Shown here: positions 4,345-27,307 of the stretch, one piece after another | How the letters are laid out: every line of letters begins with the position of its first letter | Numbering within the stretch: the stretch's first letter is position 1 | Source: a virus | Length of the DNA stretch: 40,992 bases | Virus record (IMG/VR): IMGVR_UViG_3300010354_019506 | Coordinates: 1 to 40,992 of that record | Reading direction: 5' to 3' (one strand) | Translations under genes and position numbers: made by a program | Notes under the pieces: model-generated | Told to the model about the DNA's origin: nothing | Seen by the model: only the letters and a program-made list of their open reading frames with translations | Databases searched by the model: none

Positions 4345-4743
4345 ATGGCTTACAGCTCTCGCGTGATTGATCATTATGAAAATCCTAGAAATGTAGGAAG
4401 TTTTGATAAAAATGACCCTGATATAGGAACCGGATTAGTTGGTGCACCAGCTTGTGGTGATGTTTTAAAATTACAAATTAAGGTCAACAAAGATGGTATT
4501 ATCGAAGATGCTAGATTTAAAACCTATGGATGTGGATCTGCTATTGCATCAAGTAGTCTGGTTACCGAAATGATTAAAGGGCTAACCTTAGATGAAGCCG
4601 GGCAAATAAAAAATTCTGCCATAGCCGAAGAATTAGCGTTGCCTCCGGTGAAGATTCATTGTTCCATTTTAGCTGAAGATAGTATAAAAGCTGCTATTGC
4701 TGATTATAGGAAAAAACGTGATTCATCTCACCCCAACAGCTGA
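4345..4743 (+). CDS. iscU: IscU Fe-S cluster scaffold
   Basis: Scaffold on which 2Fe-2S clusters are assembled from IscS-derived sulfur. 132 residues, near-identical in long stretches to the E. coli protein (128). The three ligand cysteines C37, C63 and C106, together with D39 and H105, are intact. So is LPPVK (99-103), the HscA chaperone binding motif. It should therefore still be able to dock on the host IscS and HscA/HscB machinery, none of which is encoded here. The C-terminus carries a few extra residues (KKRDSSHPNS) created by the 26-base overlap with iscA. The high similarity suggests fairly recent acquisition from a proteobacterial host. Confidence 0.97.
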   Translation: MAYSSRVIDHYENPRNVGSFDKNDPDIGTGLVGAPACGDVLKLQIKVNKDGIIEDARFKTYGCGSAIASSSLVTEMIKGLTLDEAGQIKNSAIAEELALPPVKIHCSILAEDSIKAAIADYRKKRDSSHPNS

Positions 4744-5541: not shown

Positions 5542-8500
5542 ATGTCAACAATTCTTAGAATAAAACGATCAGAAACAGCCGGTAATCCATCTGTCTTGGC
5601 CGCCGGTGAACTTGCATATTCTGCTTTCAATGGGTCCGGCGGCGACCGTTTGTATATTGGTATGGGTGCAGAAACACTAGGAGATGCCGCTAATCATTTT
5701 GTAATCGGTGGAAAATATTTTACCGATATGATGGACCATACCGTAGGAACATTGACTGCAAGTTCGGCTCTTTTAGTTGATTCTAATAAAAAAATTGATG
5801 ACTTTTATGTTGATGATATTCAATTAAATGGTAGTACTATAAGTACTACCGCAGTAGACACCGATTTAACTATCAGCCCAAACGGAACAGGTAAAGTTCA
5901 TATTACTAAAAATGTAGAAGTCGACGGGGATCTTAAAGTCGATGGCGGGGATATTACTTTAACAGATGCAGCTACAAATATTGCTATTAGAGATAATGAG
6001 GCTAGTGCATTAACAATTAAAGAAGGAACAAATAATTATATCACGTTAAACACCTCTAACGGTACCGAAAATATCACACTAGGACAATATTCGGTTATTA
6101 CTAAAGATGATAGCGATAATAATGCTGTAAGTTATGTACTTCAAGTTGAGCATACCACATCGGGAACACCAGCTGCTGGAATCGGAACTGGTATACGTTT
6201 TGTAACTGAAACTGCTGGTGGTAATAACGAAATTGGCGGGACAGTAGAATTTGTAACTACAGATGTTACCAACTCTAGTGAGGATTTTGATTTTGTTGTT
6301 AAGGCAATGATAGGCGGTGCTGCGGCAGCACAAATTATTAAAGGCAATGATACTACACTACAAATTGGTGCTAGTGGTGCTAATGCAGTATTAACTACAT
6401 TAGGAGCCTCAGATCTAACATTAAGTACTAATAACGGAACCAATAGTGGCACAATAAAAATAAATGACGGAACCAATGGTGATATTGAGCTAACACCAAA
6501 TGGTACTGGTGATGTTGTATTATCTGCCGATACAGTTAAAGTAGGAGATAGTAATGCTGATGCTACTATAACTACAGATGGCACTGGCGATTTGATTCTA
6601 AATACTAACTCCGGAACAAACAGTGGAACAATTAGAATTTACGACGGAGTTGACGGTGATATAGTCTTAACTCCCAATGGTACCGGTGATGTGTCTTTAT
6701 CAGCCGATACAGTAAAAATTGGTGATAATAATGCCAATGCTACACTAACCACAAATGGTACCGGCGATCTAATACTTAACACCAACAACGGAACAAACAG
6801 TGGTACCATTAGAATTTATGATGGTGTTAATGCCGATATAGAAATCGAACCCAACGGTACCGGAGACATATTTTTAAATGCTGATATTGTTCGAGTCGGA
6901 GACGGAAACCTTGATGCTGAAATTACTTCAAACGGTTTAGGCGATCTAGTATTAACCACAAATAATGGATTACTAAGTGGCAATATTAGAATTCATCAAG
7001 GAGCCGACGAAAACATCGAAATTACCACCAATGGTACAGGAAATGTTTTAATAAATGCAGATACACTCCGTGTTGGTGATCAGAACGCCGATTCTACCAT
7101 AACAACTTATGGTACCGGTGACTTAATACTTAATACTAACGAAGGTACTAATAGCGGTTCTATTAGAGTTTATGATGGATCAAACGCCGATATTGAAATA
7201 GCTCCAAACGGAACCGGTAATATATTACTAAGTGCAGATACTGTTCGAATTGGTGATCAAAACGCCGATGCTACTCTAACTACATACGGAACCGGTGACT
7301 TAATATTAAGTACCAATGAAGGCACCAATAGTGGAACAATTACCATTTATGACGGAACCAATGGTAACATCGAATTAGTACCGAATGGAACAGGAAAGAT
7401 AGAATTTTATAATGCTTATACTTTTCCATCCGCTGACGGAACCAATGGATATGTATTAACCACTAACGGAGCAGGAGCAATTAGTTGGGCAGCAAGTAGC
7501 TCTACTTTGTCAATTTCAGACGATGTAACACCGACTGCCGGCACTGATACTATTAACTTATTAACCGAAGTACTTACATTTGCTGCCGGCGAAGGCATCA
7601 ATACCGCAGTAACCGCTAATACTGTAACAATTTCGGCCGAATTAGCCACTGCCGGGGCTAACGTTGGAGCTTCGAATATTGGTAGTGCAGCATTTGATAG
7701 TGCAACTTTTGACGTTACATCTGGTTTCGTTACTGTTAAAACTAGTGGTATCAGTAACACACAATTAGCTAACAGCTCAATTACTGTTGGTACCACTTCG
7801 ATATCATTGGGTTCGAGTTCAACCACTATTGGAGGGTTAACCCAAGTAGATATCAACAACATTAGAATAACCGGAAATGAAATTAGCTCTACTAATTCCA
7901 ATGGTAATATTAGTTTAAATCCTAATGGAACCGGCAGTATCGATGTAAATAGTGCCAAAATTATTAATGTAGCCGATCCTTCGGATCCAACGGATGCTGC
8001 TAATAAAAAATATGTCGATGCTGCACGTAGTGGATTAGATGTAAAACAATCGGTAAAAGTAGCTACTACTGCTTCATTATCTGCAGACTATGATAATGGA
8101 ACCAGCGGATATTTGGCCACATTAACTAATAACTCTACACAGGCTGTGTTAGAAGTTGACGGTGTTACTCTAGCTAACGGAAATCGAATATTAGTTAAAA
8201 ATCAAGGTACCGCAGCACATAACGGAATATATGAGGTCACAGATGCCGGATCCATATCTACCAATTGGGTGCTAACAAGGGCGTCAGATGCCGATAATTC
8301 TCCTGGAATAGCCGGTGCTGAAGTTACTTCAGGTATGTTCTGTTTTGTAGAACAAGGAAGTACCAACGGTGACTCAGGATTCGTGCTTACTACCAATGAT
8401 ACTATTACTTTAGGAGTTACTGGATTAAACTTTACAGTGTTTGCTACTTCAGGAACTTTAGTAGCCGGCGAAGGTTTAAGTAAAGACGGAGATACTCTTA

Positions 8501-8919
8501 AAGTTAATGTTGCAGCCACCGGCGGAATAGAAATCAGTAGTGATAGTTTACAATTAAAAGCCACTGTAGCCGGCGATGGTCTTACACTAACCAATGGAGT
8601 TTTAGATGTGGCTGGAACCACAGACCGTATTTCGGTTACTGCTAATGCTATAGATATTGCTACTACCTATGCTGGACAATCCTCGATCACTACTTTAGGT
8701 ACCATCAGTACTGGTATATGGCAAGGAACCACTGTAGCAGCAGCCTATGGGGGAACTGGGCAAAATACCTATGCCATTGGCGATTTGATTTATGCTTCTG
8801 CTTCTACTACATTAAGTAAACGCACAATAGGCTCAGACGGACAAGTATTACAAGTAGCTCTAGTTGGAGCTGATTTGTTACCGGTTTGGGCACATTTAGA
8901 TGGCGGGACATACAGTTAA
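5542..8919 (+). CDS. large repeat-containing tail fibre protein
   Basis: 1125 residues. The N-terminus (TILRIKRSETAGNPSVLAAGELAYS...RLYIGMG) is the attachment-type domain common to fibre proteins of marine T4-like phages. Residues 285 to about 630 hold six tandem copies of a 59-residue unit (TT.GTGDLILNTN.GTNSGTI then IYDG, PNGTG and SADTV..GD). These are likely beta-solenoid or triple beta-helix rungs. After an Ala/Thr-rich stretch, residues about 810-970 contain a tail-fibre domain with DAANKKYVDAA and GNRILVKNQGTAAHNGIYEV, known from many phage fibres. The C-terminus has the fibre motif AYGGTGQNTYAIGDLIYASA. The whole is very rich in Thr, Ser, Asn and Gly. It is expressed from its own late promoter with a good ribosome binding site and closed by a strong terminator. 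It lacks collagen triplets. Confidence 0.85.
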   Translation: MSTILRIKRSETAGNPSVLAAGELAYSAFNGSGGDRLYIGMGAETLGDAANHFVIGGKYFTDMMDHTVGTLTASSALLVDSNKKIDDFYVDDIQLNGSTISTTAVDTDLTISPNGTGKVHITKNVEVDGDLKVDGGDITLTDAATNIAIRDNEASALTIKEGTNNYITLNTSNGTENITLGQYSVITKDDSDNNAVSYVLQVEHTTSGTPAAGIGTGIRFVTETAGGNNEIGGTVEFVTTDVTNSSEDFDFVVKAMIGGAAAAQIIKGNDTTLQIGASGANAVLTTLGASDLTLSTNNGTNSGTIKINDGTNGDIELTPNGTGDVVLSADTVKVGDSNADATITTDGTGDLILNTNSGTNSGTIRIYDGVDGDIVLTPNGTGDVSLSADTVKIGDNNANATLTTNGTGDLILNTNNGTNSGTIRIYDGVNADIEIEPNGTGDIFLNADIVRVGDGNLDAEITSNGLGDLVLTTNNGLLSGNIRIHQGADENIEITTNGTGNVLINADTLRVGDQNADSTITTYGTGDLILNTNEGTNSGSIRVYDGSNADIEIAPNGTGNILLSADTVRIGDQNADATLTTYGTGDLILSTNEGTNSGTITIYDGTNGNIELVPNGTGKIEFYNAYTFPSADGTNGYVLTTNGAGAISWAASSSTLSISDDVTPTAGTDTINLLTEVLTFAAGEGINTAVTANTVTISAELATAGANVGASNIGSAAFDSATFDVTSGFVTVKTSGISNTQLANSSITVGTTSISLGSSSTTIGGLTQVDINNIRITGNEISSTNSNGNISLNPNGTGSIDVNSAKIINVADPSDPTDAANKKYVDAARSGLDVKQSVKVATTASLSADYDNGTSGYLATLTNNSTQAVLEVDGVTLANGNRILVKNQGTAAHNGIYEVTDAGSISTNWVLTRASDADNSPGIAGAEVTSGMFCFVEQGSTNGDSGFVLTTNDTITLGVTGLNFTVFATSGTLVAGEGLSKDGDTLKVNVAATGGIEISSDSLQLKATVAGDGLTLTNGVLDVAGTTDRISVTANAIDIATTYAGQSSITTLGTISTGIWQGTTVAAAYGGTGQNTYAIGDLIYASASTTLSKRTIGSDGQVLQVALVGADLLPVWAHLDGGTYS
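6394..7430 (+). repeat. six tandem 177-bp coding repeats in the fibre gene
   Basis: Six in-frame copies of a 59-residue unit, each with GTGDL/I, NTN.GTNSG, IYDG or similar, PNGTGD and ADTV.VGD. The fourth copy is the most diverged (GLLSGNIRIHQGADEN) and the last is truncated after PNGTGKIEF. The DNA copies differ at many synonymous sites, so the array is old or kept divergent. Confidence 0.85.
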
Positions 8920-9046: not shown

Positions 9047-12000
9047 ATGGCAAATTTAATTAGACATAAAAGAAGTGCAGTACAAGGATTAGTCCCGTCA
9101 ACATCAGATCTCCAATTAGGTGAAATAGCAATAAACACCTATGATGGAAAATTGTTTATTAAACAGGACAACGGAACTCAATCAATTGTTGCAATCGGCA
9201 CTCAAGGTATTCAAGGAACACAAGGTTTACAAGGCAGACAAGGAATTCAAGGAACGATCGGGCCTTCATCGAGTTTATTTTATTATGTTGCCAAAACAAC
9301 AGCAACTTCGGGCTATCCCGGAGATGGATATATTTTATGGGATAATGCCACTCAAACTAGTGCCGGAAATATAATAATTAGTCATCTTACCGAAGACATA
9401 ACGGACATAGATCGTATTCTTGCCACAATGGTTGTTACTGAACAATTTATTTTGCAAGACCGTAATGTAAGTTCAAATTATCAAGTTTGGCAAATTTCGA
9501 ATACTCCAACTAATACTAATCCCGGAACTGCAACTAGTTATTGGACTTTTCCTGTTACCTTAGTTGATTCCGGCGGCACCGGTACAACTGGATTTAGCGA
9601 CGGGCATGAATTATTTTTTGCAGTTATTCGAGGGTCAACTGGTGCTCAAGGTATTCAAGGAACACAAGGTTTACAAGGTCCACAGGGCATTCAAGGTATT
9701 CAAGGAACACAAGGTCTTCGTGGAAATGACGGTACTTCTGTAACTATTCAGGGTAGTGTATATGAACCTGGCGATTTGCCAGGTTATCCAAATTCCTATA
9801 CTGGATCTATCGGAGATGGTTACATAACCGAAATTGACGGTCATTTATGGGTTTGGGGAGGATCCAGTTGGTCCGATGCAGGTTCAATTAAAGGACCGCA
9901 AGGTATACAAGGATCTCAGGGTACACAGGGAACCACCGGTGCTCAAGGTATACAAGGATTGAGGGGTAATCAAGGATTACAAGGCACACAGGGGTTACAG
10001 GGAAGACAGGGAATTCAAGGTACTACAGGCGAAAAGGGTGAAACTGGAGAATTCGGTGGTGCTAGCTTTGATTTCACATACTTGACTGCAACGACAAATT
10101 CTGATCCTGGGGCAGGAAATCTTAAATTAAATCCCGGGACATTCTCATCGGCATCGAGTTTATACATAGACGAACTCGACGGAGATTCGAATAATATTAG
10201 TAGTTTCATGCAAACTATTAATGATAGTAATTCGGATATTAAAGGTTATATTAAAATATCTTTATTAAGTGATCCAAACGATTTCGTTTTTTATTCGATC
10301 ACAAACGTAATAACCAATAATACCGGATGGTTTACGGTCCCGATATCATATCTATCCGATAATGCGACCTCTTGGTCAAATTCCAGTGCTGTTGTTATTA
10401 CTTTTGCTGTTAGCGGTAATAGAGGAGATTCCGGCCCACAAGGGGTACAAGGAAATCAAGGTATACAAGGTTATACCGGGGACCTAGGCCCGCAAGGCAT
10501 ACAAGGTACACAGGGTATTATTGGTCAACAAGGTGTACAAGGTGCTGTTGGCGAACAGGGATTACAGGGAACACAAGGTATACAGGGACCACGTGGATCT
10601 CAAGGTGTACAGGGACGACAAGGAATTCAAGGTACTACCGGCGAACAGGGATTACAAGGAACACAGGGATTACAAGGTATACAGGGATTAACTGGACAAG
10701 GTATACAGGGTACTCAGGGTATACAGGGAGAAACCGGTATTCAAGGTATTCAAGGTACACAAGGTACGCAAGGAATACAAGGAACACAAGGTCTTCAAGG
10801 TATCACTGGTGCTCAAGGTATACAAGGAACACAGGGCACACAAGGAACACAGGGAATTCAAGGTATCACTGGTGATCAAGGCATACAAGGAACCACCGGT
10901 ACTCAGGGTATACAAGGGACACAGGGTGTACAAGGCACCACTGGTGCTCAAGGTATACAAGGAACACAGGGTATACAAGGGTCACAGGGGACACAAGGTA
11001 TACAAGGTACCGACGGAGGCATGCTAACACCGGGTACCTATGTAATGCGAGCCGTAAAAGACGGTTCTGCTCAAACAATAAGTTATGATACTGATACTGT
11101 TGTTACATTCATAGACGATTTTGATCCGCAAGGGTGGTTCACATCTAATCAGTTTAAGCCAACAGTTGCTGGTTACTACAGTATATACGCTCAGGTCTGG
11201 TGGGATGCAGGTGCAGTTACAAACAATCAAACAAACATTCAGTTTAGAAAAAATGGTTCGACACAACTTGCAATTGACCAAGCTCAAATAGTAACTGGAT
11301 CAGGTTATGGACAATCGATAGATACAATAGCTTACCTCAATGGTACAACTGATTATGTCGAAGTTACTGCATATACCGGTAACACAACATCGCAGAATAT
11401 TAATGGCAGTGCAAACGGAACATTCTTTACAGCCGCACTATACGCCTATGGTCAAGATGGTGCTCAGGGAACACAAGGTATACAAGGAACACAAGGTACC
11501 ATTGGTGCACAGGGTATACAAGGTACCATTGGTGCTCAAGGGATACAGGGAATACAGGGGACAGATGGTGCTCAGGGTATTCAAGGAACACAAGGAACCA
11601 CCGGTGCCCAGGGTATTCAAGGAACACAAGGAACCACCGGTGCACAGGGCATACAGGGAACGCAGGGAACACAAGGAACCACCGGTGCACAGGGTATACA
11701 AGGAACACAAGGAACCACCGGTGCACAGGGTATACAAGGAACACAAGGAACCACCGGTGCACAGGGTATTCAAGGAACACAAGGAATCACCGGTGCACAG
11801 GGTATACAAGGAACACAAGGAACCACTGGTGCCCAGGGTATTCAAGGAACACAAGGAACCACTGGTGCACAGGGCATACAGGGGACGCAGGGAACACAAG
11901 GAACCACCGGTGCACAGGGTATACAAGGAACACAAGGTATTCAAGGCACTCAAGGCACTCAAGGCACTACTGGACAACAGGGTATTCAAGGAACCACCGG

Positions 12001-12793
12001 TGCTCAAGGTATTCAAGGTACCACTGGACAACAAGGTATACAGGGAACACAGGGTATAACTGGACAACAGGGTATAACTGGACAACAGGGTATTCAAGGA
12101 ACCACCGGTGCTCAAGGTATACAAGGTATCACTGGTGCTCAAGGTATACAAGGTACCACTGGTGCTCAGGGTATACAGGGGACACAGGGTATAACTGGAC
12201 AACAGGGAAGACAGGGAATTCAAGGTACTACTGGTGCTCAGGGCATACAGGGAACACAGGGAATTCAAGGTACCACTGGTGCTCAAGGTATACAAGGCAC
12301 CCAGGGAATAACTGGACCTTCTACCGATATTTTTGCAGTAGACGATTCATCTACCACTTTACTGTATCCAGTAATGGTAGCTACTCAAGGTATTAATTCA
12401 ACTGCTAAAGTTTCTATAACTAAATTCAAATTTAATGCCAACACTGGTGCATTAAGAGCAAATGCTATTTCAACGGCACAACAAAGTATTACAGTTAGTG
12501 GAGCAACAACTAATTTAGATTTTGGGTCGTATGACCATTTTTATATAACAATGACCCAAAATACATCTTTTACAGTTTCTAATGTTGCCGATAAAATTGG
12601 TAGTTCTGGCAACATTGTTATTAAACAAAATAGTACTGGCGGATGGTCATTTACAAAAGCTACCGAAATGAAAACTCCGCTAGGCGGAGCTTCGATTGTA
12701 CAAGTTACAACTGCAAATAGTCTTTCGGTGTTAGCTTACTATGTTGTTGATGCAAGCACAATACTAGTAAATTACATCGGAAACTTTGCATGA
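9047..12793 (+). CDS. collagen-C1q-collagen tail fibre protein
   Basis: 1248 residues. N-terminal attachment domain ([16 protein letters not shown]...[16 protein letters not shown], 1-50). Collagen-like Gly-X-Y tracts, mainly [12 protein letters not shown] and GTTGAQ, occupy parts of 53-335, then about 460-658 and 805-1088. Inserted modules include a [11 protein letters not shown] motif near 270-282. Residues 659-804 read as a C1q/TNF-like jelly roll: [14 protein letters not shown], then [21 protein letters not shown] and a closing FFTAALY. Residues 1090-1248 are a beta-sandwich tip ([22 protein letters not shown]...[10 protein letters not shown]) shared with other marine phage fibres. Proline is almost absent from the triplets; Gln and Thr replace it. 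The ATG is preceded by a late promoter. The last codons overlap the next gene (ATGA). Likely a trimeric adhesive fibre. Confidence 0.85.
9200..12315 (+). repeat. collagen-type 9-bp and higher-order repeats
   Basis: Blocks of near-identical 9-base and 18-base units (ggaacacaaggtatacaa and variants) encode GTQGIQ. The densest part, about 11460-12310, has a higher-order unit of about 36 bases encoding [12 protein letters not shown], repeated many times with few changes. The tracts are broken by globular inserts. Confidence 0.85.
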
Positions 12794-15700
12794 CTGGTGT
12801 ATTTGGTTTTTTACCGATTTATGAATGGCAGACCAGTGTCGGTACTACCTATTCTACTTCAACTACTTGGAACACTACTAATACTACAACATTCTCTACT
12901 CAACAAAGTACTACATTAACTACCAATCAAAATACTACAACATCTTGGTCAACTAGTCAAAGCACTACAACATCTTGGTCGACTAGTCAAAGCACTACAA
13001 CATCTTGGTCGACTAGTCAAAGCACTACTTTTAGCACTAATACAACGTGGTCAACAAGTGCTAGCACAACTACGTCATGGAACACATCATTTAGTACAAC
13101 TACAACGTGGTCCACTAGTCGAAGTACTACATTCAGCACTACTACTAGTTGGAGCACTAGTCAAAGTACTTCAACAACGTGGACCACCAATTGGAATACT
13201 ACTTTTAGTACTACTACAACCTGGTCTACTAATTTTAGTACTTCGTTTAGCACCAATATTGTAACTGCATTTAATACTACATTTAGTACTACCACGACGT
13301 GGAATACCAGTCAAAGTACCTCTACAACGTGGACTACTAATTGGAATACTACCTTTAGTACTACCACGACTTGGTCAACTAGTTTCAGCACTAATCGAAG
13401 TACCACTTTTAGTACTAGTTTTAATACTACTTTTAGTACCACTACAACTTGGAGTACCAGTCAGACTACTACTACCACTTGGACTACCAATTGGAATACT
13501 ACTTTTAGTACTACAACCACTTGGAGTACTAGCCAGACTACTTCCACCACTTGGACTACTAATTGGAATACTACCTTTAGTACTACCACGACTTGGTCGA
13601 CTAGTTTCAGTACTAATCGAAGTACCACTTTCAGTACTAGTTTTAATACTACTTTTAGTACTACTACAACTTGGAGTACCAGTCAGACTACTACTACCAC
13701 TTGGACCACAAACTGGAATACTACTTTTAGTACTACCACGACTTGGTCAACTACTTTCGCTACCAGTATTAATACTACTTTTAGCACCAATTTTAATACT
13801 ACTTTTAGTACTACAACCACTTGGAGCACTAGTCAGAATACTACCACGTCGTGGACGACTAATTGGAATACTACTTTTAGTACTACCACAACCTGGAGTA
13901 CCAGTCAGACTACTACCACCACTTGGACCACAAACTGGAATACTACTTTTAGTACCACTACAACTTGGAGTACCAGTCAGACTACTACTACCACTTGGAC
14001 TACTAATTGGAATACTACCTTTAGTACTACCACGACTTGGTCGACTAGTTTCAGCACTAATCGAAGTACCACTTTCAGTACTAGTTTTAATACTACTTTT
14101 AGTACTACTACAACCTGGAGTACCAGTCAGAATACTACCACATCGTGGACTACCAATTGGAATACTACTTTTAGTACTACAACCACTTGGAGCACTAGTC
14201 AGAATACTACTACCACTTGGACCACAAGTTGGAATACTACTTTTAGTACTACTACAACGTGGGTTACTACTTTTAGTACTACTACAACTTGGACTACTAA
14301 TTTTAGTACCAGTATTAACACTACAACTTCTTGGACTACAAGTTTTAGCACTAATTTTAGTACCGCATTTAACACAACATTTAGTACTAGTTTTAATACT
14401 ACAACATCATTCAATACAACATTTAGTACTACAACAAGTTGGAGTACCAGTTTTAGTACTAATCGGTCAACTTCGTTTAATACAACATTTAGCACATCAT
14501 TCAACACCACAACGACGTGGACTACTAGTTTTAATACTACAACATCTTGGACGACTAGTTTTAGTACCAATGTGAATACTACAACTAGTTGGAATACTAC
14601 TTTTAGTACCACTACGACCTGGACTACAAGTTTTACGACTTCTACAACTTGGACAACCTCTTGGACCACTACATGGAATAATTACATTGATCCTGCTAAT
14701 TATTTTAATCCAAGTAATTACGTAGTAGCCAATGCTTCTCGAAGCACTACATTTAGTACTTCTATTAACACCACCACGTCGTGGAATACAACTTTTAGTA
14801 CTACTACGGTCTGGACTACAAGTTTTACGACTTCTACAACTTGGACCACAAGTTGGAATACTACATTTACTACCGCAACTGCATTTAATACAACATTTAG
14901 CACTGCTACAAATTTAACAACTACTTGGACAACTTCTTTAAACACAAATTGGACTACCAATTGGAGTACTACATTTAGTACCACCACAACTTGGAGTACT
15001 AGTCAAAATACTACTACCTCCTGGACCACGAACTGGACTACCTCTTGGAATACAAATTGGACCACGAACTGGACTACAACTTTTACTACTGCAACTACGT
15101 GGACTACAAGCTGGAATACTACTTTTAGTACTACAACAAGTTGGAATACTACATTTAGTACCACTACAACTTGGACAACTAGTTTTAGTACTAGTGTGAA
15201 TACTACAACTGTATTCAATACAACCTTTAGTACTACAACTACTTGGAATACTAGTTTTGGTACTAGTCGTAATACTACAACATCATTTAATACAACATTC
15301 AGTACCACCACAACTTGGAGTACCAGCTGGACAACTAGTTGGACTACAAACTGGACCACCAATTGGAACACAACATTCAGTACCACCACAACTTGGAGTA
15401 CCAGTTTTAGCACCAGTGTAAATACTACAACTGTATTCAATACAACCTTTAGTACTACAACAACTTGGACAACCAGTTTTAGTACTAGTTTTAATACTAC
15501 AACCGTATTCAATACAACATTTAGTACTACAACTACATGGAATACCAGTTTTAGTACTAGTCGCACCACTACAACCGCATTCAACACAACATTTAGTACC
15601 ACAACTAACTGGACAACTAATTGGACAACTAACTGGACAACTAATTGGACCACAAGTTGGAATACTACATTCAGTACCACTACAACTTGGAGCACTAGTT

Positions 15701-16599
15701 TTAGCACCAGTTTTAATACTACAACATCATTTAATACAACATTCAGTACCACTACAACTTGGAGTACTAGTTGGACAACTGGGTGGACTACAAATTGGAC
15801 TACTAATTGGAATACTACCTTCAGCACCACCACAACTTGGAGTACCAGTTTTAGTACCAGTGTGAATACTACAACCGTATTCAACACAACATTCAGCACC
15901 ACCACAACTTGGAACACTAGTTTTAGTACTAATCGAACTACTACAACCGTATTCAATACAACCTTTAGTACCACCACAACTTGGAGTACTAGCTGGACAA
16001 CTGGTTGGACTACAAATTGGACCACAAACTGGAACACTACCTTCAGTACTACTACAACTTGGAGTACTAGTTTTAGCACCTCAATAAACACAACAACCAA
16101 TTGGAATACTACATTTAGTACTACTACAACTTGGACTAGTGCCTGGACAACTAACTGGACTACAAATTGGACTACAAACTGGAACACTACCTTCAGTACT
16201 ACTACAACGTGGTCAACTAGTGCTAGTACTTCGTTTAGTACTACTACAACATTTAATACTTCATTTAGTACTACTACAACTTGGACTACTTCGTGGAACA
16301 CTACCTTTAGTACTACCACAACCTGGTCAACTAGTTTCAGTACTACAACAACATGGAATACAACGTTTAGTACAAATACCACATGGACTACAAATTGGAC
16401 TACAACCTTTAGTACTACCACTACCTTTAACACCACATTTAGTACAACTACTACTTTTGGCACTACCTTTAGCACTACCACTAATTGGACCACAACATGG
16501 ACTACAAATTGGACAACCAATTGGTCTACAAGTTTCAATACCACTTTCAGTACAACGACCAGTTGGACTACTACAAGAACCACTAATTTCTATCAATAA
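12790..16599 (+). CDS. Thr/Ser/Asn/Trp-repeat fibre-like protein
   Basis: 1269 residues made almost entirely of Thr, Ser, Asn, Trp and Phe. After a short N-terminus ([18 protein letters not shown]) the chain follows a strict rule. An anchor residue, usually W or F and sometimes Q, R, I, V or L, is followed by three polar residues (NTT, STS, TTN), or by five in a longer unit (STTTT, STTTS). Anchors are thus always four or six residues apart, so all would lie on the same face of a beta strand. A common 24-residue compound is WNTT-FSTTTT-WSTS-QTTTTT-WTTN. The pattern breaks once near the midpoint, about residues 628-653 (NNYIDPANYFNPSNYV). I know no family with this pattern. Its place among fibre genes, and its ATGA overlap with the collagen-C1q fibre, suggest a virion surface or fibre component. 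The dense hydroxyl residues and N-X-T/S sequons would suit glycosylation. Confidence 0.8.
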   Translation: MTGVFGFLPIYEWQTSVGTTYSTSTTWNTTNTTTFSTQQSTTLTTNQNTTTSWSTSQSTTTSWSTSQSTTTSWSTSQSTTFSTNTTWSTSASTTTSWNTSFSTTTTWSTSRSTTFSTTTSWSTSQSTSTTWTTNWNTTFSTTTTWSTNFSTSFSTNIVTAFNTTFSTTTTWNTSQSTSTTWTTNWNTTFSTTTTWSTSFSTNRSTTFSTSFNTTFSTTTTWSTSQTTTTTWTTNWNTTFSTTTTWSTSQTTSTTWTTNWNTTFSTTTTWSTSFSTNRSTTFSTSFNTTFSTTTTWSTSQTTTTTWTTNWNTTFSTTTTWSTTFATSINTTFSTNFNTTFSTTTTWSTSQNTTTSWTTNWNTTFSTTTTWSTSQTTTTTWTTNWNTTFSTTTTWSTSQTTTTTWTTNWNTTFSTTTTWSTSFSTNRSTTFSTSFNTTFSTTTTWSTSQNTTTSWTTNWNTTFSTTTTWSTSQNTTTTWTTSWNTTFSTTTTWVTTFSTTTTWTTNFSTSINTTTSWTTSFSTNFSTAFNTTFSTSFNTTTSFNTTFSTTTSWSTSFSTNRSTSFNTTFSTSFNTTTTWTTSFNTTTSWTTSFSTNVNTTTSWNTTFSTTTTWTTSFTTSTTWTTSWTTTWNNYIDPANYFNPSNYVVANASRSTTFSTSINTTTSWNTTFSTTTVWTTSFTTSTTWTTSWNTTFTTATAFNTTFSTATNLTTTWTTSLNTNWTTNWSTTFSTTTTWSTSQNTTTSWTTNWTTSWNTNWTTNWTTTFTTATTWTTSWNTTFSTTTSWNTTFSTTTTWTTSFSTSVNTTTVFNTTFSTTTTWNTSFGTSRNTTTSFNTTFSTTTTWSTSWTTSWTTNWTTNWNTTFSTTTTWSTSFSTSVNTTTVFNTTFSTTTTWTTSFSTSFNTTTVFNTTFSTTTTWNTSFSTSRTTTTAFNTTFSTTTNWTTNWTTNWTTNWTTSWNTTFSTTTTWSTSFSTSFNTTTSFNTTFSTTTTWSTSWTTGWTTNWTTNWNTTFSTTTTWSTSFSTSVNTTTVFNTTFSTTTTWNTSFSTNRTTTTVFNTTFSTTTTWSTSWTTGWTTNWTTNWNTTFSTTTTWSTSFSTSINTTTNWNTTFSTTTTWTSAWTTNWTTNWTTNWNTTFSTTTTWSTSASTSFSTTTTFNTSFSTTTTWTTSWNTTFSTTTTWSTSFSTTTTWNTTFSTNTTWTTNWTTTFSTTTTFNTTFSTTTTFGTTFSTTTNWTTTWTTNWTTNWSTSFNTTFSTTTSWTTTRTTNFYQ
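12840..16580 (+). repeat. 12/18-bp-based low-complexity coding repeat
   Basis: Coding repeat built from 12-base (four-codon) and 18-base (six-codon) blocks, such as aatactacttttagtact. Synonymous variation among act, acc and aca and among agt and agc is high, so the protein pattern is better preserved than the DNA. The coding strand is poor in G, which comes mainly from TGG and AGT/AGC codons. One non-repeat island lies at about 14671-14745. Confidence 0.85.
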
Positions 16600-16689: not shown

Positions 16690-17562
16690 ATGGATATGTT
16701 CAACAAAACCTCAATGAAAGATCGGATTGGGGATATTCAAAAAAATGCCAGTTTATATCATTTAAAAGATGTAGAAAAATATTTTCTAAAAACCATAGAA
16801 AAATATAAAATCGAAGTCAGTTATGATGTTATCGCCAACGAATTACCGTATTTTAAAACATTGAATTATACCGAATGGGCTCATTCTTTTATGATGCATC
16901 CGTTACAGCAAGAGCATCGAGTACGACAGATACAAGATGCCTATGATGATAATTGCGATGTTAAAGTCGATTGGATGGAATATTTTCGACATCGAATTCT
17001 AGAAGGGCAAAGTAATAAGTATACTCATATCGAAACCGGTCACAATATTCAAGCTCGAGAAGCTTTAGTAGTATTAGTAGGATCAAATAAGCTCAAGGAG
17101 CGTATCTGTTTAAACAAATTACGATGGGTTCGAAATAGATATGATGACGATGTTTATTTTAAACCTCACCCATTAACCACACATCAATTAGTTGGAGAAT
17201 TAAGAGATTTATTTGGATCTAAAAATGTTTTAGAAAGAGACCTCGATATGTATTCGATTTTAATTGACAGTGAAGTAATTTTTACCAGTCATATGAGTGA
17301 GTCGGCTGTGTATGCTGTAGCCTTAGATAAGCGAATTGAACCTATCGATGTTTATAACAAAGTCGAGCAAGGTAGCTTTTATCACGTAAACAAGTATCTT
17401 TTTAATGTTGATGATCCAAAAAATTGGATGAATCGAGCATTAAACAGTTACAAATGTGGTATAGTAAATCCCGAAATAGAAGAAAATTGGCAGAAAAAAA
17501 TCGATTCGTATTTAGAATACATCATGGCTCAGCGAAATAAAAATAAAAATAAATATGTATAG
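16690..17562 (+). CDS. capsule-synthesis-like GT-B transferase protein
   Basis: 290 residues. The first half is helical with no motif I recognise. The second half resembles the C-terminal Rossmann part of GT-B enzymes of the capsule polysaccharide (KpsS/KpsC-like) and polysialyltransferase type. It has a strand ending VVLVGSNK (about 126-133), a VYFKPHPLT motif, a following MYSILIDSEVIFTSHMSES segment where a nucleotide-sugar site is expected, and ALDKRIEPIDVYNK. The KPHP motif is typical of this group. The catalytic N-terminal half of a full GT-B fold is not evident, so activity is uncertain. AGGA at 16676-16679 precedes the ATG. It stands apart from the main sugar cassette, between a Thr/Ser/Trp fibre and a small tail protein, which hints at modification of a nearby fibre. 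Confidence 0.6.
   Translation: MDMFNKTSMKDRIGDIQKNASLYHLKDVEKYFLKTIEKYKIEVSYDVIANELPYFKTLNYTEWAHSFMMHPLQQEHRVRQIQDAYDDNCDVKVDWMEYFRHRILEGQSNKYTHIETGHNIQAREALVVLVGSNKLKERICLNKLRWVRNRYDDDVYFKPHPLTTHQLVGELRDLFGSKNVLERDLDMYSILIDSEVIFTSHMSESAVYAVALDKRIEPIDVYNKVEQGSFYHVNKYLFNVDDPKNWMNRALNSYKCGIVNPEIEENWQKKIDSYLEYIMAQRNKNKNKYV
17548..17555 (+). promoter_or_regulatory. T4-type late promoter (AATAAATA)
   Basis: AATAAATA lies in the last codons of the preceding gene, 30 bases before the start of the small tail protein at 17586. A strong Shine-Dalgarno AAGGAG (17575-17580) follows. Confidence 0.6.
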
Positions 17563-18121: not shown

Positions 18122-18625
18122 ATGGCAAACTGGGTATACATCGAAAATGGTGAGATTAAACAATATTTTGAATCTCTACCGACATATTGGGAAACCGAAA
18201 CAGAATCCTACGTTGGTTTTAATTTATCTGAAAACAATTTATCTTGGTTAAAAGAAAGAGGATGGTATCCCGTAAGAAAAGTGCAGATCGATATTGATAC
18301 AAATTTATCTACTGTTGAATCTTATCATTATGAAATATCCGATAACGAAGTAATCGAAACCCCTATAATAAGAAATTTTACTGCTAAAGAAATTGAAGAT
18401 CTAAAATTTGATTCATTTCTTTCTTTTTTAACCACTACTCGACATCTTCGCGATTATAAATTAAAAGAATCTGATTGGACTCAAATGCCCGATGTCCAAG
18501 AAGGAAAATCAGAATCTTGGAAAACTGCTTGGAAAGTATATAGACAAGAATTAAGAGATCTTCCATCTACTATCACAGAAATAAATCAAGTGCAATGGCC
18601 AACGGAGCCAAGTGATGTTAGTTGA
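18122..18625 (+). CDS. tail assembly chaperone-like protein
   Basis: 167 residues with the two hallmarks of the phage tail-fibre/tail assembly chaperone family. One is an N-terminal segment WVYIENGEIKQYFESLP.YW followed by LKERGWYPV. The other is a C-terminal helical signature R.YKLKESDWTQ...WKTAWKVYRQELRDLP. Proteins of this kind help fold or oligomerise a fibre encoded beside them, here most likely the RCC1-repeat protein whose start overlaps its 3' end, or the small tail protein before it. The sequence before the ATG shows no Shine-Dalgarno, only a late-promoter-like box. Confidence 0.8.
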   Translation: MANWVYIENGEIKQYFESLPTYWETETESYVGFNLSENNLSWLKERGWYPVRKVQIDIDTNLSTVESYHYEISDNEVIETPIIRNFTAKEIEDLKFDSFLSFLTTTRHLRDYKLKESDWTQMPDVQEGKSESWKTAWKVYRQELRDLPSTITEINQVQWPTEPSDVS

Positions 18626-21600
18626 AAAATTATTGATGAAAGGTGCTTCTTCGGTGGCCGCCGGGACTAGATGTTATTTGCATACTTGGGGAGTGCAACC
18701 AATTCCCGCTCAACCACAATCGGGAACTATAAGATCATGGACAGCTATTGCTAGCGACGATCTAAATGGCACTTTTTTTGGAATTACATCGACCGAATTG
18801 GGACTTTATTCGTGGGGAAGAGAAGTAGCCGGTCAACTCGGTCAGAATCAGGCAGCAAGCGGAATTTTTCCTCCTGTTGGGTTTGAGGCTCCAGTTAGAA
18901 TAGGAACTAATTCTTGGACCGCAGTCGATGCTGGAGATGGTTTTGCAACCGCAATAAGAGCCGACGGAACTTTATGGGGATGGGGATGTGGACTTTGCGG
19001 AAGAGCCGGATTATCGATTACTACTAATAGATCAAGTCCGGTTCAAATAACTGTTGGCACCGGTTCCTGGACCGCAGTGGCAGCAGGTGCATTTATCGGA
19101 CTTGCGATAGCAAATAACGGTACTTTATGGGGATGGGGGGGTGCAAGAAATAGTGGATCCGGGATCGATTGCGGAGGGTTTTCCACGACTCCTGGTTGCT
19201 GCGATCGCCCGGTTCAGATAAGCAATTGTACCAATTGGTCAAGAATTTCCACTGGGCCAGTAACTGGTGAAATCTGTTGGGTTGATGGACATTCATTGGC
19301 TCTTGACACTCTCGGAAGATTATATGCCTGGGGTAGTAATGGATGTTGGGAATTAGGTGTCAATAGACAACACCCGGTCGGAAGACCTGTTAATACTTGT
19401 TCAGTAAGTTCTACTACTCGCACTATAGCTGCTGGTAGATATGCTATTGCTTCAATACTAAATCCAACCAGTGGTGCTAGCAGTGGATTTTTATCAACCG
19501 CCGGGTGCGATCCGTGTTTCGCAACAGGAAGATGTCATTGCCGATATAGTACTACTCTAGACAATGGATTGTTGTTCGCCCAAAAAAATTCAATGCATGC
19601 CATAGTAAATGATAGATGTTTTAATGTTGTTTCCTTAGGAAGCTGGCATGGATTAGCGATCGACCAATTTTCTTCATTGTTTGCATGGGGTCGAGGAGAT
19701 TGTGGAGAATTGGGTCTAAATCGAAGATGGAAATGTGTACAAAACAGAAGTGTCGGCAATATAGTACTGGCCTTAGATTTTGATAATAAATTGTGGGTTT
19801 GGGGAGCTAATTGTGTCGGTGAGCTTGGACTTAATTGTCTCAATGGGGGTCGAGTAGATCCAGTACAAGTCGGTACTTCGTCGTGGACTGCAATATCTGG
19901 AGGATTACACGGGGCACAACTTGCGATTCGCAGTGACGGAGCACTATTCACATGGGGATGTAATCTTTATGGTCAGTTGGGACTAAACGATACTATTAAT
20001 CGATCTAGCCCAACTCAAGTTGGTACTTCGTCTTGGACTGCTGTGGCAACAGGCCAGCAAACATTTGGTGCTCATTCACTTGCTATTCGTCTTGGCGGAA
20101 ATTTATTTGCATGGGGGTATTCCTTTGAGGGACAATTAGGAAATAATAGTACAACTAATCAATCCAGCCCGGTCCAAATCGGATCAGGTACCTGGTGTCG
20201 AATAAGTGCCGGGGATGGTTTTACGACTGCAATTCTGACCACTGGAGAAATTTTTAGTTGGGGATGCGGAGGACTTGGTCGATTAGGAAACGGAGTTACA
20301 ACTAATAGATCGAGTCCACAACAAATTGGTACTTCGTCTTGGTCGGCGGTTTGTTCAGGTCTGTGTCATACAGTGGCTCTTAGAAATAATGGCACTTTAT
20401 GGGCGTGGGGAGGAAATGGCAGTGGCAGATTAGGTAATGGTAGTACTATTAATCAAAGTAGTCCTGTTCAAGTTGCTGGTTCCTGGCTAGCTATTTCGGC
20501 AGGCGGGGGTCTTAACGGAATAAGTCATGCAATTAGTACAACAGGTGGACGTTTATGGGCATGGGGAGATAATTCTTGCGGGCATCTCGGTGATGGTACT
20601 TCAACAAGTAGATGCAGTCCCGTTGCTGTAGGCACTTCTTGTTGGATAATGGTAGAATCAGGATGGAACCGATCTTTTGCAATAAGAGGCGATAATACAT
20701 TGTGGGTTTGGGGTAATAGTTGTGGCGGCGGAACAAATCCCACATTTATATGTACACCAGTTTTTGGAAATAATAGTTTAGTTACTTCAATTGCTTCACC
20801 AGTTATGGCAGGTACCGGAGTTATAAATCCGGTTAGAGTATCAAATGATTCTTGGATAGCAGTCTCGGCCGGTGCTAGATTTAGTCTTGGTATTAAATTA
20901 GGAAACACGTTATGGGCGTGGGGAGAAAATAACGGAGGTCAGTTAGGAATTGGTGCTGCTTCGACTACCTGTCAATTTGCTATATCTCCAGTTCAGATAG
21001 GTAGTGGAACAACTTGGTGTGTCGTTGAAGCAGGAAATTGTACAGGAGCTGCGATAAGAGGTGCTCCTGCATTGGCAACCGGTGAATTATTTATTTGGGG
21101 GTTTAATACTCAAGGACAATTGGGAGATTCTACTACTATTTCAAAATCTAGTCCTATTCAAGTTGGAGTAACCCAAGGGTGGACTGATATAAGTTTAGGA
21201 GTTGCTCATGCACTAGCTGCTTGTAATGGCGGGTTAACATCCTGGGGATGTAATAATCAAGGACAATTGGGTAACGGTGATTCTGTAACTAGATCTAGTC
21301 CGGTTGTTATTTCAGGAGTATGGACCGGAAGAATCTCTGCTCATTTAGCTAATCACAATTTAGCAGTAAAAAGTGGTGGTGCTTTATGGTCGTGGGGTTG
21401 TAACATTGTGGGTCAATTGGGAGATTCTACTGCCACATCAAGAGCTAGTCCGGTACTAATTTGTGCTGGTGCTACTTCTTGGGGTAATGTTGCAGCTGGG
21501 CTGTTCACAAGTATGGCTGTGCAGTGTTGTACAATAACCAATCAATGCGAAATTTTATATGCGTGGGGAGATGGTGCGTCAGCGGCGGTTCCGTATTATC

Positions 21601-23159
21601 CGTCACTAGGACAACGTACTCCACGTGTTTTAGTTGAAACAGTTTCTCCTACTCAAATAGGTACTTCGTCATGGTCTGCTATAGCGGCCGGCCCCAGAGT
21701 TTCATACGCAATACGCAGTGACAATACATTATGGGGGTGGGGAGCAGGAGGCCAATTACCTTTCAACGACAACCTTGATCGATCAAGTCCAACACAAGTT
21801 GGAGCAGGTACCTGGTGTGTAATCAATGCAACTTGTGCTGCAGGTGTGTTTGGTGTTACAACAACCGGTAGCTTATTTCAATGGCGAGGTAACGTCTTTT
21901 GCCCGACTGTAAAAAATATTCTTGTTCCTAGTAGTCCGGTACAAATAGGAAGTGCAGCATGGAAAACCACAAATAATAATGCCATAATGGCGGGAAATTC
22001 TCAATGTTCATTTTATGGGATTCAGAGCGATTTAAGATTGTATTCGTGGGGAGGGCCACCAGGTCAATTGGGACAAGGATGGAGATTTTGTGCTGCTCAA
22101 GACACTACCACAATTTGTTTAAGAGATCCCATTGCAGTAGTATCTAACTGTGTCCGATCATCACCTACTGTAATGGGATCTCTTAGTTGGTCAGCTGTAG
22201 CTTCTGGAGCAAATCACTTTTTAGCTATTAGAGGTGATAGAACATTATGGTCTTGGGGTTACAATGCCGATGGACAACTAGGGTTAAATGATATATTGGA
22301 CCGATCTTCGCCGACACAGGTAGGAACTAGTCAATGGACGGCTATTTCGGCTGGACAATGGCACAGTTTAGCTATTAGATCGGGCGGAAACTTATTTGCA
22401 TGGGGATCCAACAATTGTATCTTTGGCGGGCAACTTGGTGATCAGACTATAGTTTCCAAATCTAGTCCGGTACAAATAGGAAGTGGTACGTGGAATCGTG
22501 TTGCGGCCGGTGTCTATCATAGTCTTGCTGTTTCCTCAACTGGAACTTTATGGGGTTGGGGTCAAAATGGGTGTGGACAATTAGGTCAAGGAACCACAAC
22601 TTTACTTTGCTGTTCGCCGGTTTCTGTGGGATCTTCTAGTTGGTCAGCAATTTCAGCGGGATGTGACTTTTCGGCAGCTATAAGGTCCGATGGTGCTTTG
22701 TTTACTTGGGGATTCAATTGCGGAGCAATTGGAGATAATACTTTCACAGGTTTAACACATCGGTCTAGTCCGGTGCAAATAGGAACTAATTCATGGTCGG
22801 CTGTTTCAGCAGGAACTGTTATTGTTCATGCCATAAGATCCGACGGAACTTTATGGGGATGGGGTTGTAATGCGGGCGGGCAAGTAGGTGTTGGGACAAC
22901 AACCACAACATGTAGCCCGGTGCAAATAGGAGCAAACACTAATTGGTCGATTCTTCCTTCAACGAGACGTGATATTGCGAGAAGTGCAGCTATAACTAAC
23001 ACCGGAGATCTATATGCTTGGGGATCAAATGAGTTTGGAATCCTCGGTGATGGAACTACAATTTGCAGATGCAGTCCGGTGCAAATCGGATCTGGTGTTA
23101 AAAAATGGAGCGAGATTTCTTTTGGTTGTCGACAATGGTTAGGTAGACAAGATATATAA
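18615..23159 (+). CDS. giant RCC1-repeat beta-propeller adhesin
   Basis: 1514 residues built almost wholly of RCC1-type blades of about 50 residues. Each has a core WGWG/FAWG, then a G.LG motif, a SSPVQIG strand, W.A(I/V)(S/A)AG and HS.AI.. strands. I count about 26 to 27 WG-type blade cores, which would suit four seven-bladed propellers (28) with some degenerate blades, for example around residues 260-350. It is unusually rich in Cys for a phage fibre, often in WGCN or GCGGLG-like loops. The ATG at 18615 has GGAG (18604-18607) seven bases upstream and overlaps the end of the chaperone gene. RCC1 propellers bind proteins or surfaces in eukaryotes; here the context suggests receptor binding. 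No signal peptide or membrane segment. Confidence 0.85.
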   Translation: MLVEKLLMKGASSVAAGTRCYLHTWGVQPIPAQPQSGTIRSWTAIASDDLNGTFFGITSTELGLYSWGREVAGQLGQNQAASGIFPPVGFEAPVRIGTNSWTAVDAGDGFATAIRADGTLWGWGCGLCGRAGLSITTNRSSPVQITVGTGSWTAVAAGAFIGLAIANNGTLWGWGGARNSGSGIDCGGFSTTPGCCDRPVQISNCTNWSRISTGPVTGEICWVDGHSLALDTLGRLYAWGSNGCWELGVNRQHPVGRPVNTCSVSSTTRTIAAGRYAIASILNPTSGASSGFLSTAGCDPCFATGRCHCRYSTTLDNGLLFAQKNSMHAIVNDRCFNVVSLGSWHGLAIDQFSSLFAWGRGDCGELGLNRRWKCVQNRSVGNIVLALDFDNKLWVWGANCVGELGLNCLNGGRVDPVQVGTSSWTAISGGLHGAQLAIRSDGALFTWGCNLYGQLGLNDTINRSSPTQVGTSSWTAVATGQQTFGAHSLAIRLGGNLFAWGYSFEGQLGNNSTTNQSSPVQIGSGTWCRISAGDGFTTAILTTGEIFSWGCGGLGRLGNGVTTNRSSPQQIGTSSWSAVCSGLCHTVALRNNGTLWAWGGNGSGRLGNGSTINQSSPVQVAGSWLAISAGGGLNGISHAISTTGGRLWAWGDNSCGHLGDGTSTSRCSPVAVGTSCWIMVESGWNRSFAIRGDNTLWVWGNSCGGGTNPTFICTPVFGNNSLVTSIASPVMAGTGVINPVRVSNDSWIAVSAGARFSLGIKLGNTLWAWGENNGGQLGIGAASTTCQFAISPVQIGSGTTWCVVEAGNCTGAAIRGAPALATGELFIWGFNTQGQLGDSTTISKSSPIQVGVTQGWTDISLGVAHALAACNGGLTSWGCNNQGQLGNGDSVTRSSPVVISGVWTGRISAHLANHNLAVKSGGALWSWGCNIVGQLGDSTATSRASPVLICAGATSWGNVAAGLFTSMAVQCCTITNQCEILYAWGDGASAAVPYYPSLGQRTPRVLVETVSPTQIGTSSWSAIAAGPRVSYAIRSDNTLWGWGAGGQLPFNDNLDRSSPTQVGAGTWCVINATCAAGVFGVTTTGSLFQWRGNVFCPTVKNILVPSSPVQIGSAAWKTTNNNAIMAGNSQCSFYGIQSDLRLYSWGGPPGQLGQGWRFCAAQDTTTICLRDPIAVVSNCVRSSPTVMGSLSWSAVASGANHFLAIRGDRTLWSWGYNADGQLGLNDILDRSSPTQVGTSQWTAISAGQWHSLAIRSGGNLFAWGSNNCIFGGQLGDQTIVSKSSPVQIGSGTWNRVAAGVYHSLAVSSTGTLWGWGQNGCGQLGQGTTTLLCCSPVSVGSSSWSAISAGCDFSAAIRSDGALFTWGFNCGAIGDNTFTGLTHRSSPVQIGTNSWSAVSAGTVIVHAIRSDGTLWGWGCNAGGQVGVGTTTTTCSPVQIGANTNWSILPSTRRDIARSAAITNTGDLYAWGSNEFGILGDGTTICRCSPVQIGSGVKKWSEISFGCRQWLGRQDI
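18690..23140 (+). repeat. tandem RCC1 blade repeats
   Basis: Roughly 27 coding repeats of about 150 bases with diverged DNA but a conserved frame. The same short DNA words, such as ggtacttcgtcttgg and agtccggtacaaatagg, recur at many blades. Confidence 0.8.
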
Positions 23160-23198: not shown

Positions 23199-24221
23199 AT
23201 GCATTTAATCGATCAAGAACTAAATTTAATGATTCGAGGAAGATTTGAGGAAGGATGGCAAATCGCAGAAGAAATCGAACGAACCGATCCAAACAATCCA
23301 CGTGGAAAATTTAATCGTGGATGGTTTTTAATTCATCGGGGGCAATTTCAGGAAGGTTATCGTTGTCTCGAAAATGGAAGATTCCTTGATGTTTATGGAA
23401 GTCCGCCCCTTAAAACTAATAAACCAATTTGGAGATATCAAGACTTAAAAAACAAAGTAGTTTTGATTAATCTAGAAGCTGGGTACGGAGATCAAATTAT
23501 TAGTTCTAGATTTGCCATTGATGTAGAAAATCGTGGCGGTAAAGCTATTTTAGCTTGCACTCCAGATATACATTGTCTCTTTAAGAGAATACCAGGATGT
23601 TTCAAATGTATAGAGTATACCGAAATATCAAATACAAGATTTGATTATTGGATTCCTGGATTTAGTTGCGGGTGGCTTTTTGGGCATACATTCGATTCGT
23701 TACCAAATCAACCGTATATTTTTTCAGATCCAACATATGTTCTTAAATGGAAAAAAATTTTAAAAACCGATCGAAAGTTTCGAGTAGGAATTCGATGGAG
23801 TGGAAATCCCAAATTTGAGCATCAACAATTTAGGACTTTTCCGGCTGATAATTTAATAAATTTATGCAAAAAATATAAAAATATTCAATTTTATAGTTTA
23901 CAGAGAGACAACGATCTAAGAGAATTGCCTGAAGAAATAATCGATCTACAACATCAATTAGAAACATGGGATGATACTGCTGCCTGCATAGAAAATCTCG
24001 ATTTAGTTATTAGTTCTTGTACAAGTATCGCACATCTGTCAGGAGCTATGGGTAAAAAAACATGGGTCATAGTACCAATTTTGCCATATCATGTATGGGC
24101 ACATGGTAACGAGCATTCACCATGGTATGGTACTAATACTAAAATTTATAGACAAACTAAATTCGGAGATTGGTCGGAAACTTTTATTAAAATAAATGAC
24201 GATTTAAATAAAAATTTTTAA
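23199..24221 (+). CDS. TPR plus GT9-like glycosyltransferase
   Basis: 340 residues. Residues 1-60 form a TPR-like helical pair (GRFEEGWQIAEEIERTDPNNPRG..NRGW.L...GQFQEGYRCLENG). Residues about 85-335 resemble the heptosyltransferase/GT9 fold seen in TPR-GT9 proteins: VLINLEAGYGDQIISSRF at the N-terminal Rossmann strand, VGIRWSGNPKF in the middle, FYSLQRDND, then DLVISSCTSIAHLSGAMGKKTWV. The last segment contains the (S/D)(T/S)..HL.GA motif of the nucleotide-sugar site. It opens the sugar cassette after a 39-base gap with no Shine-Dalgarno. A TATAAATC near-match to the late box lies at 23156-23163. Confidence 0.8.
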   Translation: MHLIDQELNLMIRGRFEEGWQIAEEIERTDPNNPRGKFNRGWFLIHRGQFQEGYRCLENGRFLDVYGSPPLKTNKPIWRYQDLKNKVVLINLEAGYGDQIISSRFAIDVENRGGKAILACTPDIHCLFKRIPGCFKCIEYTEISNTRFDYWIPGFSCGWLFGHTFDSLPNQPYIFSDPTYVLKWKKILKTDRKFRVGIRWSGNPKFEHQQFRTFPADNLINLCKKYKNIQFYSLQRDNDLRELPEEIIDLQHQLETWDDTAACIENLDLVISSCTSIAHLSGAMGKKTWVIVPILPYHVWAHGNEHSPWYGTNTKIYRQTKFGDWSETFIKINDDLNKNF

Positions 24222-24240
24222 TCTTATGTTATTATCATAC

Positions 24241-24259
24241 ATAAAGTTTTAAACTTTAT
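24241..24259. repeat. AT-rich perfect inverted repeat before the sulfotransferase gene
   Basis: ATAAAGTTT and AAACTTTAT around a single central T. A stem of seven with a five-base loop could form in RNA. It occupies most of the gap before the start at 24269. Confidence 0.6.
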
Positions 24260-24268
24260 GAGTCATTG

Positions 24269-25063: not shown

Positions 25064-25065
25064 AT

Positions 25066-25671: not shown

Positions 25672-25678
25672 TTTGTTA

Positions 25679-27302: not shown

Positions 27303-27307
27303 AATCT

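Follow-up and report, generated by a model that had tools for sequence, protein, structure and literature searches.

The question raised by the locus described here is what structure, if any, is written into a long open reading frame of low complexity. The window, by which we mean the whole 40,992-base virus record of IMG/VR that was analysed, belongs to a T4-like phage. Its fibre region contains a gene for a protein of 1269 residues that is composed largely of Thr, Ser and Asn, and this gene lies among the following features.

608-1780: gp63-like RNA ligase / tail fibre attachment protein, 46% identical to its best relative, in Synechococcus phage B23
2645-3277: phage-encoded iron/manganese superoxide dismutase (Pfam Sod_Fe_C, E 4e-21)
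4345-4743: NifU-like Fe-S cluster assembly protein (PHROG 8429, E 2e-39)
5542-8919: tail fibre gene; relatives in Pelagibacter phage Mosig and Methylophilales phages Melnitz
9047-12793, plus strand: collagen-repeat tail fibre gene (Pfam collagen match)
12790-16599, plus strand: 1269-residue fibre protein, proposed to be a self-complementary hairpin of Thr-rich strands
16690-17562, plus strand: gene Z, the partner gene (PHROG 26179/30602)
18122-18625: tail fibre assembly chaperone
18612-23159: RCC1-repeat (beta-propeller) protein of 1515 residues, directly 3' of the chaperone
24266-25063: sulfotransferase
28291-29601, 29591-30568, 32063-33763 and 37930-38712: glycosyltransferases
37010-37933: radical SAM/SPASM protein

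The stop codon of the collagen-repeat gene and the start codon of the Thr-rich gene overlap in the sequence ATGA, and the two genes are likely to be on the same transcript. A gp63-like attachment catalyst, two tail fibre genes and an assembly chaperone are all present in the window. Because tail fibre genes adjoin the Thr-rich gene, its product is probably a virion fibre, with a tail or adhesion fibre as the most likely kind.

Composition and spacing of the Thr-rich protein

The protein contains 607 Thr, 220 Ser and 125 Asn residues (T/S/N = 75%) together with 117 Trp and 111 Phe, while Gly (7), Pro (3) and Asp (1) are rare and charged residues are nearly absent. All 227 spacings from one Trp or Phe to the next are even (4 residues, n = 127; 6, n = 58; 10, n = 26; 8, n = 12; 2, 14, 16 and 18 once each), compared with a mean of 102 and a maximum of 130 even spacings in 2000 permuted sequences. 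An earlier note on this DNA had reported that no odd spacing occurs outside a central island; the even parity continues across the island as well. Its count of about 54 Trp in the first half was also correct (54). The same note described a strict 4/6 code over a wider set of anchors, and this was borne out for the most part only. When Q, R, I, V, L and Y are added to the anchors, there are 173 fours and 77 sixes, but also 30 odd spacings, which are due to outward-facing Val (as in TTTVF), to a single QQ, to the chain ends and to the island.

Thr is found at position -2 of Trp or Phe in 222 of 224 cases and at +2 in 221 of 224, which supports the suggestion that the anchors occupy one face of an extended strand. 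This anchor face consists of Trp, Phe and Thr, with Ser present once in ~610 positions, and the face opposite the anchors is a free mixture of Ser, Thr and Asn. The 24-residue compounds that had been read as a sign of a regular coil do occur, but the coil length is not fixed; the autocorrelation periods are sums of 10 and 14 and vary from relative to relative. Of the earlier proposal of a new beta-solenoid or fibre fold, the fibre half is supported, and the solenoid half is not, as no constant period is found. All four Thr codons are used in the gene, which indicates that the pattern is held at the level of the protein.

Searches of Pfam and PHROGs returned no match to the repeat protein, and a PDB sequence search returned nothing meaningful. 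The single NCBIfam match, to the serine-rich protein NF033849, scored 45 bits against a cut-off of 650; the likeness is one of low-complexity Ser/Thr composition, and since the same model also matches 6 of 14 control genomes, the match was regarded as compositional. No match in phages was obtained by tblastn, probably because the low-complexity filter removes the protein, and relatives were found by pattern scans instead. A scan of genome contigs for the F..W pattern gave 14 chance-like matches that lacked the grammar, a phage search with the islands and tip domains of relatives gave no useful match, and no description of such a fibre was found in open-access papers. These results agree with the earlier statement that no described family has this grammar. 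Many odd spacings or a match to a known repeat family had been named in advance as findings that would count against the reading in the earlier note; both were looked for and neither was seen.

Mirror register about the central island

The protein can be divided into two long arms on either side of the island.

12790-12843, plus strand: conserved N-terminal base motif, residues 1-18, with GFxxIYxWxT common to relatives
12844-14676, plus strand: arm 1, residues 19-629; residue i is predicted to lie opposite residue 1280-i of arm 2
14677-14739, plus strand: central island, residues 630-650, NNYIDPANYFNPSNYVVANAS, the predicted turn or tip, at 0.50 of the chain
14740-16575, plus strand: arm 2, residues 651-1262, the predicted antiparallel return along arm 1
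16576-16596, plus strand: conserved C-terminal base motif RTTNFYQ, predicted to lie at the same hairpin end as the N-terminus

The N-terminal motif is also present in L001, L044, L069, L085, L130, L131 and L139 and in the A proteins of the two-gene systems described below. Endings of the R[ST]T[NSD]FY type occur in L032, L055, L058, L065, L078, L133, L139 and others, and the island is similar to those of L138 and L032. Nine complete one-gene members from viral contigs, the window protein included, were compared (285-1701 aa), and in all nine the only major non-repeat island is located mid-chain (0.50-0.52).

Window protein: 1269 aa, arms 633/624
L001: 1701 aa, arms 820/811
L032: 573 aa, arms 280/279
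L061: 714 aa, arms 368/340
L078: 623 aa, arms 271/263
L131: 860 aa, arms 398/399
L133: 747 aa, arms 329/321
L138: 285 aa, arms 137/127
L139: 540 aa, arms 268/261

An island at the middle of the chain suggests a hairpin, whose second arm must then repeat the spacings of the first in reverse. Fours and sixes do follow one another as a palindrome on the two sides of the island, which had been missed in the earlier note. The mirrored spacing and the complementarity of the arms point to a hairpin turn at the island rather than to a simple interruption. In the mirror register i+j=1280 (1-based), 129 anchors face one another out of 133 and 137 per arm, compared with 47.6±4.2 (at most 64) when the spacings are shuffled (z 19), and the match across the nine one-gene members has z values of 7.6-25. 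There is zero register slip over the 614 paired residues of the window arms, and the 13 unmatched anchors are mostly outward Val. The second-best register matches 91 of 132 anchors, with mixed identities. A palindrome at the DNA level was rejected as the cause, as there are no DNA inverted repeats and no 15-mer has an inverted copy; mirrored Thr codons are identical in 72 of 228 cases, which is about the chance level. Exact direct repeats of at least 30 nt cover 31% of the gene (12790-16599), which suggests that the arms grow by local duplication; the mirror register is nonetheless kept.

The facing residues are complementary rather than alike. In the window register there are 90 W:F pairs, no W:W and one F:F, and the pairs in shifted registers are mixed. 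Complementarity as a by-product of directional F-STTTT-W units was considered and rejected. When only anchors with a four-spacing on both sides are counted, 32 W:F pairs and no homotypic pair are found in the window, and 126 complementary pairs versus 1 in the two-gene systems; a local F-STTTT-W unit cannot produce complementarity at such anchors. In an antiparallel beta pair, residues that face each other across the two strands project on one and the same side. The even parity, together with facing anchors at i+j=S, would accordingly be that of an antiparallel beta ribbon, and pairing of the arms in this register is, as judged from the sequences, almost certain.

Two-gene systems, short relatives and the pairing code

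In many contigs, two Thr-rich genes lie side by side, here called A (product beginning with MKN.GF..KDFW) and B (product beginning with MPNT/MANT), so that the mirrored anchors characteristic of the proposed fibre class are found either within one gene or between two adjacent genes. The anchors of A and B match in antiparallel orientation in 14 of 14 pairs (z 6.6-36). Parallel pairing was rejected, as its score was lower in all 14. Complete pairs share a common end-to-end register (S minus B length, -18 to +7), and incomplete pairs match at the place expected from the part that is absent. A held-out set comprised ten previously unused pairs of the same contig or the same type; nine of them match antiparallel (z 6.8-24) and L079 failed. 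The L122 and L135 pairs match less completely (0.42-0.44 of anchors).

The composition of the pairs was determined in 12 two-gene systems. Aromatic:polar pairs number 1394 in register and do not exceed 623 at the other even shifts, with only 27 aromatic:aromatic and 12 polar:polar pairs in register. Phe is paired with Arg (202), Lys (189) and rarely Gln (3); Tyr with Lys (259), His (191) and Arg (113); and Trp with Arg (169), Gln (129) and Lys (125) but never with His (W:H 0). The values for W:H and F:Q indicate that the code is narrower than "aromatic with polar". On the non-anchor face, Ser:Asn is enriched threefold (690 versus 228 in two-gene systems, 193 versus 58 in one-gene members and 69 versus 21 in the window) and Thr:Asn is depleted. 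There is thus little doubt about a code of Y:H/K/R, F:K/R and W:K/R/Q in the relatives and of W:F in the window phage.

Related two-gene systems also change in a correlated manner. From L056 to L029, gene A has gained 24 residues after position 642 and 10 after 755, and gene B has gained 10 after 170 and 24 after 265; with S=926, the mirror sites in B should fall at 171 and 284. The longer indel is located in repeats, where its place in the alignment is ambiguous. From L122 to L135, the indels in gene A are -12, +8, +2 and +22, and those in gene B, in mirrored order, are -12, +8, +2 and +21 (the last in two pieces), at observed positions 243, 142, 128 and 20-40 compared with expected positions 256, 144, 127 and 80. 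Substitutions at facing anchors are correlated, with odds ratios of 4.7 (p=5e-5) and 5.2 (p=0.012). They include exchanges (F:R to Y:H, H:Y to R:F), a swap of sides (Y:K to R:Y) and a joint loss on both sides of a pair (W:R to T:T). A comparison of L001 with L130 had zero usable positions for the substitution test.

A proteins carry Hint/intein-like, S74-like or Cys-rich domains at the predicted tip end. A Hint/intein-like domain was observed at the C-termini of L029, L051, L071, L072 and L056 (Intein_splicing match in L029, E 1.2e-4), which would point to a self-cleavage or ligation step at the tip of the fibre. The C-terminus of L112 is S74-like (PHROG 6121, E 3e-11; Pfam S74, E 0.03, below the cut-off) and gives a weak hint of a trimer.

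Relatives in cultured phages were reached through gene Z. This gene occurs in unrelated phages near the fibre gene or adjoining it, namely in L001, L032/L147, L144-L146, L061, Caulobacter phages and Vibrio phages including KVP40, and its association with Thr-rich hairpin proteins is conserved across T4-like, Autographiviridae (Caulobacter) and KVP40-like phages. It is possibly a modifying enzyme or a chaperone of the fibre; a weak match to glycosyltransferases was obtained for one homologue (E 0.011, below the cut-off). When gene Z homologues were traced in named phages, short Thr-rich relatives were found directly upstream, namely KVP40.0254 of Vibrio phage KVP40 and the corresponding proteins of V07, F86, D479 and D484. 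These have a virion-type N-terminal domain followed by two ~55-residue arms and a Gly/Lys turn, which is flanked by Cys on both sides in F86, D479 and D484. The arms end flush in their best register, where 52 of 52 facing anchors are aromatic versus R/K/H/Q, with none alike (p 0.001-0.016 for each protein versus relabelled anchors). Since the spacing is uniformly four residues, identity alone sets the register in these proteins.

KVP40.0254 (PHROG 30374), a hypothetical protein, resembles the long fibres in its Thr-rich arms, its mirrored complementary anchors and the gene Z homologue directly downstream. It differs in its short arms, uniform spacing and virion-type N-terminal domain, and it is without a Hint or S74-like tip domain. 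A search for virion data on KVP40.0254 found none. The Caulobacter proteins Lullwater gp41 and BL199 gp42 show weak symmetry only (p 0.01-0.03); Lullwater gp41 and its relatives are probable divergent members and were kept as candidates. The pattern is absent from the cultured relatives of the window phage (Melnitz, Mosig, B23 and DC31).

As a rule, the way in which proteins pair is deduced from their folded shapes. In these fibres it appears to be readable from the sequence with a few rules: aromatic residues versus K/R/H/Q, Trp versus Phe, Ser versus Asn and Thr versus Thr, with the spacings in mirrored order. We know of no earlier natural strand pair with sequence complementarity, here up to ~800 residues per strand, and of no protein with a hairpin of such length. 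The code would turn uninformative low-complexity open reading frames of environmental viruses into a readable class, predict contacts without a structure and offer a testable route to programmable beta-strand pairing. Cultured cases for such tests are KVP40 and other Vibrio phages, and probably the Caulobacter phages.

Proposed fibre and alternative explanations

The explanation that best accounts for the data, to which we assign a probability of about 0.88, is a virion fibre built as an antiparallel two-stranded beta ribbon that runs from the base to the island and back. The chain would leave the conserved base, turn at the island and return, with residue i opposite 1280-i over ~614 residues, which would give a fibre of ~200 nm in the window phage (614 x 0.33 nm). 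The conserved N- and C-terminal ends would come together at the base, probably for attachment to the virion, and the variable island would be at the far end, where it is somewhat more likely than otherwise to serve as the receptor-binding tip. In the two-gene phages, separate proteins of adjacent genes would serve as the outgoing and the returning strand, paired in the same way.

Register would be specified in two layers, namely a mirrored order of the irregular 4/6 spacings and complementary residues on the anchor face, with Thr:Thr between them and Ser:Asn favoured on the other face. Irregular spacing combined with unlike pairs makes one register far better than any other, so that each strand pair, whether of one chain or of two co-evolving genes, could carry its own register address. 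It is highly probable that phages build very long, thin fibres by such a residue-by-residue complementarity code, similar in logic to base pairing, which aligns antiparallel strands over hundreds of residues. The anchor face might be buried by the packing of several ribbons together; a trimer is a tentative suggestion for this. AlphaFold monomer models were made of the window tip (7 rows) and of L138 (5 rows). The island-flanking strands of the window-tip model are symmetric about the predicted axis, but the models were excluded as evidence because of their low mean pLDDT (31.5 and 31.1, respectively).

Several known structures share parts of this arrangement. In the T4 gp37 needle, a homotrimer that has six antiparallel strands, each chain runs out and back. 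The gp37 needle, at the tip of the long tail fibre (PMC7291167), is ~150 Å long (PMC3004832), compared with arms of 50-820 residues in the present class, and is similar in being a fibre tip with antiparallel strands along the fibre axis and a receptor-binding part at the end. Searches of Pfam, PHROG and PDB sequences found no homology of the Thr-rich protein to gp37 or another solved fibre. To our knowledge, neither a pairing code nor a Thr-rich grammar nor a two-gene split is known for gp37. Trpzip peptides and other designed hairpins have cross-strand Trp-Trp or cation-pi pairs (e.g. PMC12271999, PMC2705519), and their aromatic pairs on one face likewise stabilise an antiparallel hairpin. 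However, trpzips are short designed peptides with Trp:Trp pairs, whereas the natural fibres avoid like pairs, are hundreds of residues long and encode their register in the irregular spacing. The triple-stranded beta-helix of the T4 gp5 C-terminal domain (PMC3004832, PMC4576200) is also a beta-structured phage fibre with an even repeat, but it consists of three intertwined chains with an octapeptide repeat and has neither hairpin symmetry nor complementarity. The octapeptide VxGxxxxx was not found in the window protein, where the spacing is 4/6 and Gly accounts for 7 of 1269 residues. The Gly-X-Y pattern of collagen is also absent, and the Pfam collagen model matches the upstream gene (9047-12793) only.

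The same mirror register and complementarity would be expected if two copies of the protein were paired head to tail as an antiparallel dimer, with arm 1 on arm 2, the islands mid-fibre and the length doubled; the two-gene systems pair separate chains in any case. A dimer of this type would, however, have two identical ends and an island at its middle, which is awkward for a virion fibre with one attached end. The short Vibrio members, with their Gly/Lys turn, Cys on both sides of it in three proteins and flush arms, also argue against the dimer, as do the extra domains located exactly at the tip end of the A proteins. We therefore regard the dimer as improbable and, from these sequence features, a hairpin as very likely for the one-gene members.

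Even less probable is a beta-solenoid or beta-helix coil in which the mirror symmetry arises as a by-product. A Thr-rich, repetitive sequence nearly free of charged residues and with repeats of 10 and 14 residues would suit a coil of this kind, but the coil length is inconstant, the turn residues Gly, Pro and Asp number only 7, 3 and 1 in 1269, and a solenoid predicts neither the mirror register, nor the complementarity between genes, nor the mirrored indels. We give equally little weight to a disordered, mucin-like rod that is glycosylated at Ser and Thr and decorated by gene Z and the downstream transferase cluster. Strict parity and residue complementarity would be needless in such a rod, and the decoration genes could serve the collagen fibre instead, although the 75% S/T/N content, the glycosyltransferase, FkbM methyltransferase and sulfotransferase genes at 23199-38712 and the conservation of gene Z, with its one weak glycosyltransferase match, are all in its favour. 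A hairpin could well be glycosylated on its S/T/N face, so the mucin-like explanation may be partly true as an addition to it.

Two further observations concern the region downstream of the fibre gene. The RCC1-repeat protein is a candidate receptor-binding or structural protein. The block of glycan and protein decoration genes at 23199-38712, which includes several FkbM methyltransferases in addition to the genes listed above, has a low GC content (31-34%), is flanked by two tail fibre gene groups and may modify the fibres.
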